A stretch of 64,000 bases of DNA, from the IMG/VR virus record IMGVR_UViG_3300044701_002494, positions 1 through 64,000 of that record, one strand, 5' to 3'. Both the position numbers and the translations under genes were made by a program. Below the pieces are notes generated by a model, which saw only the letters and a list, made by a program, of their open reading frames with translations, did no database searches and was not told the DNA's origin. Each line of letters opens with the position of its first letter. Position 1 is the first letter of the stretch. Below are positions 6,427-24,356 of this stretch, piece after piece. The DNA is from a virus.

Positions 6427-6536
6427 TACTTTTTCTTACCTCCATTTTTTGCCTTTTTGGCAGTAGCATTACCTTGATTTTGCTTTTTATTACCAGCAGA
6501 ACCTTTTTTACCTTTATTTGGTGATTTAGACATCAT
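6426..6536 (-). CDS. tiny lysine/asparagine-rich protein, 36 aa
   Basis: The product is almost only Lys, Gly, Asn, Ser, Ala and Gln (SPNKGKKGSAGNKKQNQGNA and then KKAKNGGKKK). It starts in an ATGATG sequence that overlaps the upstream stop and ends in TAATG with the next gene. A DNA- or RNA-binding role is possible from the charge alone. Confidence 0.5.
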   Translation of the reverse strand: MMSKSPNKGKKGSAGNKKQNQGNATAKKAKNGGKKK

Positions 6537-6916
6537 AGATCTCCTCTTTGGAATGGTTTTTCTTCATCAACTTTTGCTTCGAGTGCTTCAACTCTTTCTT
6601 CAAGAGAAGAATCTGACGCTTCAGAATATCCAGTATCAACTAAAGGTAGTTCTTCAGTTCTTGTTTGAACTGGTTCTTCCCAAACTGGTTCTGGTGGTGT
6701 AGGAGGAGTTTCTACAAACTCTTCTCTTTTTGGTTCTGCTTTTTTCTCATCATCATCGTCACCTTTCTTCATGGTATTAATACCAAAAGTAGCAGCGGAT
6801 GCTGTAAAAACAGTCGCAATAAATGTTGGGTCCATCTTAGATAAAGCACCTGCATAACTTGCAGTCAGAAGAGCAGCAGCCCAACCAAGAATAGCAACAC
6901 GGATCACTGTGTTCAT
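6533..6916 (-). CDS. holin-like membrane protein with acidic C-terminal tail
   Basis: Two hydrophobic segments near the N-terminus (VAILGWAAALLTASYAGAL and FIATVFTASAATFGI) are separated by a short turn, then KKGDDDDEKK starts a long Pro/Glu-rich tail ending in a coiled-coil-like ERVEALEAKVDEE. This layout and the position directly after the lysozyme fit a holin. The start at 6916 is chosen because AGGGA lies just upstream; an ATG at 6949 would add 11 residues. Confidence 0.55.
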   Translation of the reverse strand: MNTVIRVAILGWAAALLTASYAGALSKMDPTFIATVFTASAATFGINTMKKGDDDDEKKAEPKREEFVETPPTPPEPVWEEPVQTRTEELPLVDTGYSEASDSSLEERVEALEAKVDEEKPFQRGDL

Positions 6917-6967
6917 ACAAGTTTCCCTTTTTTTAGTTTTGTTGTCCATTTTAGGTAGTAAGTGAAG

Positions 6968-7423
6968 TTAACCTTTTTTCCAAGATTCACCTTCTGCTTT
7001 TCTCCTACGTGCAAGTCCTGCTTCTACATTTGAACCAGGATTTCTGTATAGGTATAAAGCATCGGGAACTAAGTCCCATTCTTTATTCTTCAGGCGTTTA
7101 GTAATAGTATTAAAGTTATCACCACCGTAAAAACCGGCACCAAGATTATAAGCAAAGCTGAGCAGAGCGCCTCTTTTTCCATCTGACATTTCATTCCAAT
7201 GTGGGATTTTACGGAGTGCAGGAAGGAATTGATTCTTGCACTGACTGATTAATAATTCGTCTGCTTCTTGCTGGGTAATCTTATCACCCATTTGGAATGG
7301 TTGCCCATTCTTATTTCGGGTAGAACCCCAACCGATTGTAATTGGAAGTCCACCAGTTAAGGGATCAGGATATGCTGATAAATGACATCCTTCAAATTCC
7401 TTGATTAATTTGATACCCATCAT
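6968..7423 (-). CDS. GH24 (T4-type) lysozyme domain, probably translated by -1 frameshift from the gene at 7480-7704
   Basis: IKEFEGCHLSAYPDPLTGG and ITIGWGST carry the Glu, Asp and Thr expected for GH24 muramidases, which cut the MurNAc-GlcNAc bond. LSFAYNLGAGFY and AGLARRRKAEGESW are also typical. The ATG at 7423 has no good ribosome binding site. The frame stays open upstream to a GGGAAAG slippery site at 7483-7489 and encodes a Gly/Ala/Ser/Pro linker, so the main product may be a 245-aa fusion with the module encoded at 7480-7704. Independent initiation at 7423 is the alternative. Confidence 0.85.
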   Translation of the reverse strand: MMGIKLIKEFEGCHLSAYPDPLTGGLPITIGWGSTRNKNGQPFQMGDKITQQEADELLISQCKNQFLPALRKIPHWNEMSDGKRGALLSFAYNLGAGFYGGDNFNTITKRLKNKEWDLVPDALYLYRNPGSNVEAGLARRRKAEGESWKKG

Positions 7424-7445
7424 AGGGACATCATCACCACCACTT

Positions 7446-7489
7446 GCGACAGCAGGAGCAGAAGCACCGCCGCCGCTAGTTACTTTCCC
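7446..7489 (-). promoter_or_regulatory. programmed -1 ribosomal frameshift signal
   Basis: On the minus strand the zero frame reads CTG GGA AAG TAA, so the heptamer G_GGA_AAG (7483-7489) is in X_XXY_YYZ register and directly abuts the stop. After a 6-nt spacer (TAACTA) comes a 10-bp stem: arms at 7467-7476 and 7446-7455, with an 11-nt loop. A -1 slip continues as GGG AAA GTA ACT into the lysozyme frame. The same heptamer drives the known lambda G/GT frameshift. Confidence 0.8.
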
Positions 7490-7704
7490 AGAGATTTACC
7501 ACAATGTGGACATACATCTCCAGCAGGAGCAGAAGCACCAGCAGATGATCCACCACCCTTACCTCTATAAATTTCCGCCCAGTCTGCGTTATCTTCAAGA
7601 TAATCATTAGGAAGATTATCTTCTAACCACTGAACTGCTTTAATATGACTTGGGTTTCTATCGTCATAAAATTTAAAAAAGTTATGTAAATCAACTCTTG
7701 CCAT
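7480..7704 (-). CDS. small cell-wall-hydrolase N-terminal module with zinc-ribbon-like end
   Basis: The product begins MARVDLHNFFKFYDDRNPSH and continues with AVQWLEDNLP, a module repeated at the start of the peptidase encoded at 7803-8474. A Gly/Ser/Ala linker leads to CPHCGKSLGK, a half zinc ribbon, and the stop. The start at 7704 is preceded by GGAGGAAACG, a strong ribosome binding site. A -1 slip at the last two codons would bypass the stop and join this module to the GH24 lysozyme. The module may direct the enzyme to the wall or virion; that is inferred from its reuse. Confidence 0.8.
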   Translation of the reverse strand: MARVDLHNFFKFYDDRNPSHIKAVQWLEDNLPNDYLEDNADWAEIYRGKGGGSSAGASAPAGDVCPHCGKSLGK

Positions 7705-7831
7705 CGTTTCCTCCGAAATACTTTTGATAGAGTTCGTTTGCTTCCTTATGCTTTCCGTTATCAGCAAGATCCTTAATTACCTTAAGCATCTTAGCTTTAA
7801 AATTAGTCGAAGATCCTTCCCCACCCATCAT
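7691..7831 (-). CDS. small helical protein, 46 aa, function unknown
   Basis: The ORF has a GGAGG ribosome binding site and starts ATGATG inside the 3' end of the peptidase gene. It ends just inside the next gene. The product is charged and helical (FKAKMLKVIKDLADNGKHKE, then ANELYQKYFGGNDGKS). Codons for GGNDG near its end supply the GGAGG and ATG of the following gene, and the same arrangement occurs at the end of the peptidase gene. Confidence 0.55.
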   Translation of the reverse strand: MMGGEGSSTNFKAKMLKVIKDLADNGKHKEANELYQKYFGGNDGKS

Positions 7832-8474
7832 TGCCTCCTGGACACCAACGGTGCTTAAGAACTGCTTTGGTGTAAATGGTCTTCTTACCGTTAGTTACAG
7901 GACCTGAATAATTATCATTTAAAGAACCATAAGGATCATTTACATAATATCCCTTCCCATCTGGTGTCTTACCGATTACAACACACATATGCCCACCAGT
8001 AGGTGCAGATAAAGAACCCCTGTGCAGAATACCAATAACAACAGGTTTGCCTCTATCAAGGCTTTTATCAATATCAGCAAAAGAAAGATTGTAGCTAAAG
8101 TGTGACTTAACTCCATAACCCGCCAAAACTTTTGTCTGTACGGAGTGATCAGTCGTATCACCAATTGCGAATACTTTTTTAACGTATTCATCATCACCTT
8201 TAATGCTTCCTGGCTTGAGGAATGCAAGGCACATAGCGCACGATGAAGAGTTGCAAGTTCTATGTGCATCTCTATAATTGTCTACCTGATTAAAATAAGG
8301 AACATCTAAAACTGCAGGTGTTGGTGGAGCAGTTCTAAAAATACTTACCCAATCAGATTCAGAATCATCTAAAAATTTTTCTGGTAGGTTATCTTCTAAC
8401 CACTGAACTGCTGCAACATGGTTGGGGTTTTTATCATCATAATACTTAAAAAAGTTATGAAGATCTAGGGTCAT
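7803..8474 (-). CDS. C39-like cysteine peptidase with shared N-terminal module
   Basis: Residues 1-40 (LDLHNFFKYYDDKNP, AVQWLEDNLPEKFL) repeat the module of the lysozyme fusion. The rest resembles C39-like peptidases: a Cys-rich start (TCNSSSCAMCLAFL), then GKPVVIGILHRG, GGHMCVVIGKT with the likely catalytic His, and YYVNDPYGS with the Asp. These enzymes are papain-like; in phages they are proposed to cut peptidoglycan cross-bridges or other peptides. No signal peptide is seen. It overlaps the upstream 65-aa gene by 20 nt. Confidence 0.75.
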   Translation of the reverse strand: MTLDLHNFFKYYDDKNPNHVAAVQWLEDNLPEKFLDDSESDWVSIFRTAPPTPAVLDVPYFNQVDNYRDAHRTCNSSSCAMCLAFLKPGSIKGDDEYVKKVFAIGDTTDHSVQTKVLAGYGVKSHFSYNLSFADIDKSLDRGKPVVIGILHRGSLSAPTGGHMCVVIGKTPDGKGYYVNDPYGSLNDNYSGPVTNGKKTIYTKAVLKHRWCPGGNDGWGRIFD

Positions 8475-24280: not shown

Positions 24281-24283
24281 AAT

Positions 24284-24354
24284 GGAAGCATCGAGTCTCG
24301 AACTCGAAACCTCTTGAATGCAAATCAAGTGCTCTACCAATTGAGCTATGCCCC
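24284..24354 (-). tRNA. tRNA-Ala (TGC), isolated
   Basis: A complete minus-strand cloverleaf: acceptor GGGGCAT/ATGCTTC with two G-T pairs, D arm GCTC/GAGC, anticodon stem CTTGA/TCAAG with loop TTTGCAT (anticodon TGC), and T loop TTCGAGA. It sits 23 kb from the main tRNA cluster, between a small gene after mazG and a late gene. A hairpin with a T5 run lies immediately upstream of its 5' end. Confidence 0.92.
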
Positions 24355-24356
24355 AA

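Follow-up and report, generated by a model that had tools for sequence, protein, structure and literature searches.

Conserved junctions point to a programmed -1 ribosomal frameshift that joins a small module to a GH24 lysozyme in cyanophages

A conserved programmed -1 ribosomal frameshift probably joins a small protein module to a GH24 lysozyme at the locus described here, a reading to which we assign a probability of about 0.92 from comparative sequence evidence. The locus lies within a stretch of 64,000 nucleotides (the window) that derives from a 96-kb IMG/VR virus record. Its features, in window positions, are as follows:

7480..7704, minus strand: zero-frame module gene, whose 74-aa translation comprises a 47-residue module, a flexible linker and the CxxC tail CPHCGKSLGK, and which ends CTG GGA AAG TAA
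7710..7714, minus strand: Shine-Dalgarno sequence GGAGG of the module gene (from the sequence and the anti-SD duplex, -9.5 kcal/mol)
7483..7489, minus strand: slippery heptamer G_GGA_AAG in X_XXY_YYZ register, invariant in 26/26 distinct junctions
7480..7482, minus strand: zero-frame stop TAA, which abuts the heptamer (TAA in 19 and TAG in 7 of the 26 distinct junctions)
7446..7476, minus strand: 3' stimulatory hairpin predicted by folding, after a spacer of 6 nt, with a hairpin in all 26 relatives
6968..7483, minus strand: -1 frame with a GTA codon, Gly/Ser/Ala/Pro linker and GH24 lysozyme (171 codons and a stop)
7433..7441, minus strand: Shine-Dalgarno-like GGTGGTGAT ahead of an internal ATG at 7423, a possible weak internal start judged by its duplex with the 16S tail
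7803..8474, minus strand: separate C39 endolysin gene that carries its own copy of the module

The sequence-only reading had placed G_GGA_AAG in register at the end of the 74-residue gene, touching the stop, had followed it with a 6-nt spacer and a 10-bp stem-loop, and had traced the -1 frame through the Gly/Ser/Ala/Pro linker into the lysozyme to give 245 residues. All of this was confirmed on the minus strand (heptamer at 7489-7483, hairpin at 7476-7446). The frame entered after the slip begins VTSGGGASAPAVASGGDDVPMMGIKLIKEFEG... and is open for 171 residues, and its lysozyme has the Glu-Asp-Thr motif region and matches the phage lysozyme family PF00959 (3e-22), as expected of a GH24 member. 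The closest named lysozymes are those of the Synechococcus phages DSL-LC02 and DSL-LC03 (Kyanoviridae), which are 92-93% identical to that of the window. The hairpin has a 10-bp outer helix and a folding energy of -20.1 kcal/mol, a stability only moderately above that of shuffled sequences (z -1.7). The heptamer GGGAAAG is also that of the lambda tail chaperone. As GGGAAAGTAR, found once in the window, occurs at least once in 26 of 100 shuffled windows, the heptamer by itself is weak evidence, and the case rests on conservation. The window has 123 open reading frames of 60 aa or longer, and the module gene alone combined an in-register heptamer close to its stop with an extended open -1 frame.

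In a scan of IMG/VR, the search pattern held the protein sequence CPHCGK-x-LGK constant and allowed any synonymous codon. The 37 contigs recovered, which come from many metagenomes, all read YTG GGA AAG TAR and are all open in the -1 frame to the lysozyme; this string was found in 26/26 distinct junctions, with synonyms permitted by the search. A control Gly-Lys dipeptide four codons upstream is encoded in these 26 junctions by GGT (14), GGC (6), GGA (5) or GGG (1) and by AAA (24) or AAG (2), and the codon usage of the window is 0.36 for GGA and 0.37 for AAG. The tail residues C, P, H, C, G, K, L, G and K are invariant in the 26 distinct homologues, with varying codons, and where unrelated phage proteins have a stretch resembling CxxCGKxxGK, it is encoded by other codons. 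Moreover, a hairpin lies 3-6 nt past the heptamer in 26/26 distinct junctions (mean z -2.3), and its stems vary yet stay paired through compensating changes (GGGCAG..CTGCCC, GGACAG..CTGTCC, GCGGCAG..CTGCCGC). The homologous junctions, 26/26 of which keep the heptamer, the adjacent stop and the hairpin, support the frameshift reading, and in none of them has the heptamer or the stem been lost while both reading frames persist, an outcome that would have spoken against it. As the contigs are related, these counts are not independent events and overstate the independent evidence.

The -1 frame is maintained as a coding sequence, and its phase does not vary. The distances from the stop to the lysozyme take six values, every one of them 2 mod 3, and the motifs EFEG and Y-D-TIGWG are retained in 25/25 lysozymes of the window's class. 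With a dN/dS of 0.07-0.15 (about 0.07 among relatives of the window's -1 frame), the lysozyme is, as judged by sequence comparison, under purifying selection. The lysozyme tree is poorly resolved, with 25 label changes in all and few supported forks, and suggests that the lysozyme has been shuffled between phages; because of the few supported forks and these signs of shuffling, we claim no number of independent gains.

The same lysozyme is also joined by a -1 shift arrangement to a module-C39 endolysin gene in related cyanophages, where the shift site is A_AAA_AAG, a U-run or C_CCA_AAG. This recurrence with other heptamers had been missed by the sequence-only reading. In a survey of the regions upstream of lysozymes, A_AAA_AAG was found in 34/36 distinct junctions of this C39 class and no ATG was present in the linker of 35/36; the hairpins there are of several sequence types unrelated to one another (mean z -2.9). 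A degenerate scan, made independently, returned 81/81 distinct junctions with G[CT]A AAA AAG and a stop, all open into the lysozyme, which nearly always lacks an ATG. Thus, gene S-PM2p156 of phage S-PM2, a module-C39 endolysin, ends GAT GCA AAA AAG TAA, and the -1 frame continues VTSSTSRSKYDIPVKGVELIKEFEG into a lysozyme without a start codon there; the arrangement is present in both sequenced genome records. In both genomes, the GenBank lysin starts at an internal ATG about 90 codons downstream. The annotated lysins of this kind, L201 (3193-3684 of NC_006820, S-PM2), L361, and L202 and L362 (S-CAM7), all have internal-ATG starts and lack the catalytic N-terminal portion of the lysozyme. On the frameshift reading, these annotations are truncated because the true N-terminus is reached only via the -1 shift from the C39 gene. 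The S-CAM7 junction reads GTT TTT TTT CCA CAG TAG, with a T8 run, as do those of L287 and L288. The C_CCA_AAG version was seen once, in L262, whose C39 gene ends CTC CCA AAG TAG and is followed after the stop by a potential hairpin, GCGGCAGTAG..CTGCTGCCGC by eye, with a GCGGCAG..CTGCCGC stem. The hairpin is modest at S-CAM7 and weak or absent at S-SRM01. The latter keeps A_AAA_AAG and also has an ATGA overlap; with that overlap and no clear hairpin, coupling is possible, and S-SRM01 may use it.

Natural single-frame fusions support the predicted fusion product. The module, linker and lysozyme are encoded in one frame in DSL-LC02, DSL-LC03 and about 70 distinct contig sequences from IMG/VR, and the fusion is therefore a common product of the family. 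ACG-2014f phages likewise encode module-C39-lysozyme in one frame. In support of the C39-class product, L315-L317 are natural in-frame module-C39-lysozyme fusions that differ from L329, a relative with the shift arrangement, by a single added A at the slippery run (GTA AAA AAA GTA GAA AAC TCT ACT CCT), and they encode in frame DVKKVENSTP, the very peptide that a -1 shift predicts for L329. Uninterrupted relatives had been named in advance as a sign of sequencing error at the window. They do exist, but the single-frame module-lysozyme relatives are another sequence type, without the CPHCGK[P/S]LGK tail and without the heptamer, and thus give no sign of such an error; as a refutation of the frameshift they were rejected. 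Every tail-bearing contig that was found has the -1 arrangement. A CxxCGKG variant occurs in frame in seven of the single-frame contig sequences.

The lysozyme could instead be an ordinary adjacent gene, translated from its internal ATG or by re-initiation after termination at the TAA, which we regard as improbable. An ATG is present near the lysozyme start in 24/26 junctions of the window's class, S-SRM01 has its ATGA overlap, and in some relatives the lysozyme has its own start and an N-terminal domain. The sequence-only reading had stated that the lysozyme's ATG lacks a ribosome binding site. This held only in part: GGTGGTGAT (7441-7433) can pair with the 16S tail, whereas its distance to the ATG at 7423 is long. 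With this Shine-Dalgarno-like sequence ahead of the ATG, phages of the window's class may make some free lysozyme. However, two adjacent genes would leave unexplained the invariant heptamer and hairpin, as well as the constant -1 phase over six linker lengths. Furthermore, the ATG is absent in 2/26 junctions of the window's class (L097/L183 and L113), where L097 with its copies and L113 read PASGLKLIKEFEG, and it is missing from 35/36 of the C39 class. The peptide DDVPMMGIK is also encoded within the single-frame fusion relatives, and since the ATG thus sits inside a fused peptide (MMGIK), that at 7423 need not be a start. In a set of relatives (L254, L276, L277, L330, L347), the same lysozyme has a start of its own and begins with another N-terminal domain (MSIKFIDAVKNYKDLPHQ...), the start mostly lying at an ATGA overlap with the C39 gene.

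Less probable still is a shift that is already present in the message, through a base inserted or skipped by RNA polymerase at the run, and is then read by the ribosomes. The T8 run at the junction of S-CAM7 and its relatives is long enough for such transcriptional slippage, but GGGAAAG and the runs of mostly six A are short for it, and the in-register heptamers that end in AAG, with hairpins a few nucleotides downstream, fit ribosomal slippage. A sequencing or assembly error or a decayed gene, which the existence of single-frame relatives might suggest, was rejected as next to impossible given the conservation of the junction and the lysozyme: the arrangement is repeated in 37 contigs from many metagenomes and, in its C39-class form, in two separate S-PM2 genome records, and the lysozyme has a dN/dS of 0.07-0.15 with its catalytic motifs retained.

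Programmed frameshifting is preferred, and it would proceed as follows. Most ribosomes would complete the zero frame and produce the bare 74-aa module with its CxxC tail. At G_GGA_AAG, with the 3' hairpin and perhaps also the neighbouring stop as stimulators, a fraction would slip by -1, the P- and A-site tRNAs moving in tandem from XXA AAG to XXX AAA; at the window, tRNA-Gly would move from GGA to GGG and tRNA-Lys from AAG to AAA. The shifted ribosomes would read the Gly/Ser/Ala/Pro linker and then the GH24 lysozyme, giving a module-lysozyme endolysin of 245 aa. In related T4-like cyanophages, the same event at A_AAA_AAG, the U-run or C_CCA_AAG would fuse module-C39 peptidase and lysozyme into an endolysin with two enzymes, the predicted products being module-C39 (about 232 aa) and module-C39-lysozyme. 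The conserved heptamers and hairpins, the conservation of both frames as protein and the lysozymes that lack a start codon are present in the sequences; slippage in vivo and its efficiency are inferred. The short and fused products may be made in a fixed ratio, as the sequence-only reading proposed. Both are presumably needed, because the shift and the stop have persisted although relatives demonstrate that a plain in-frame fusion can exist.

The tail-assembly chaperones of tailed phages (lambda G/GT type) also use a -1 frameshift (Xu et al. 2004, as cited in PMC3556154), and the heptamers in other phages are GGGAAAC or AAAAAAC (PMC3556154). As at the window, one message with an X_XXY_YYZ heptamer gives a short and a -1-extended product; in contrast to the chaperones, the gene here is that of a lysis enzyme, the extension is a whole catalytic domain, and the stop abuts the heptamer. 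Nor does the window gene have the position of a chaperone gene, just before the tape measure gene: it encodes a short module and, in the -1 frame, a GH24 lysozyme, and its neighbours are the C39 endolysin and small unassigned genes. Another close parallel is E. coli dnaX, where, according to PMC5009743, A_AAA_AAG is made shift-prone by the weak pairing of a tRNA-Lys(UUU)-type tRNA with AAG. As described there, dnaX shares with the cyanophage junctions A_AAA_AAG, one tRNA-Lys weakly paired with AAG, a 3' stem and two products per gene, whereas its shift shortens the protein and that of the cyanophages lengthens it. An upstream Shine-Dalgarno-like stimulator, unlike in dnaX, is not established at the cyanophage junctions.

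Endolysins made of two polypeptides from a single gene include CTP1L, LysIME-EF1, LysP7951 and others (PMC9430671, PMC4777826, PMC7098653). They too combine a long enzyme with a shorter non-catalytic or partial form, and theirs can assemble. In contrast to the products described here, which would arise by frameshift and have a common N-terminus, theirs arise from in-frame internal starts and have a common C-terminus; the second frame at the window is -1 and not an in-frame internal start with a ribosome binding site. PMC9430671 makes no mention of frameshifting. The short form may serve a separate function, such as that of a non-catalytic partner, and a mixed endolysin, as in the internal-start endolysins (PMC9430671, PMC4777826), is the leading idea. 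AlphaFold predicted the module with moderate confidence (pLDDT 71), a structure search returned no PDB fold match, its sequence had no significant PDB match, and among viral structures there was one weak match, to the S-N03 endolysin.

To our knowledge, most described cases of frameshifting in tailed phages concern tail chaperones and a few capsid genes, and most endolysin isoforms arise from internal starts. A conserved -1 shift that recurs on lysis enzymes connects these two themes. It would offer a new route to mixed endolysins in phages that abound in the sea and in fresh water, and it accounts for the S-PM2 and S-CAM7 lysins annotated as truncated and catalytically incomplete. In the literature searched, no conserved -1 endolysin frameshift of this kind was found, apart from one Lactococcus lysin (1994) that, like the genes here, has overlapping reading frames and that PRFect lists among genes known to contain a frameshift. 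No comparable endolysin is named in the searched part of the Atkins 2016 review, in GeneTack 2013 or in PRFect. The mechanism itself has precedents; what appears to be new is the class of gene and the repeated occurrence with different heptamers. More tentatively, and at somewhat less than even odds, frameshifting may be a general and repeatedly re-tooled device of T4-like cyanophages, in which the heptamer (GGGAAAG, AAAAAAG, CCCAAAG, U-run), the hairpin and the zero-frame partner (bare module or C39 peptidase) are exchanged and the shift is kept, and in which short and long products assemble with each other, for the window's class perhaps by means of the half zinc knuckle formed by the CxxC, and so determine the composition or the timing of lysis.

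Several further features of the window were observed. A 46-aa open reading frame (7691-7831, minus strand) lies between the C39 and module genes and overlaps the start of the latter, and DSL-LC02 has a small reading frame at the matching position, 128 aa as annotated. Downstream of the lysozyme, a 138-aa protein (6533-6949, minus strand) has a hydrophobic stretch and an acidic Pro-rich tail; it matches solely PHROGs that lack an assigned function, and that it is holin-like is our guess. The window also contains seven phage tRNA genes (53-902 and 24282-24356, both minus strand). One of them, at 415-490, is a tRNA-Lys(UUU), which reads AAG by wobble, is of the same kind as that behind the dnaX shift (PMC5009743) and could favour slippage to AAA.
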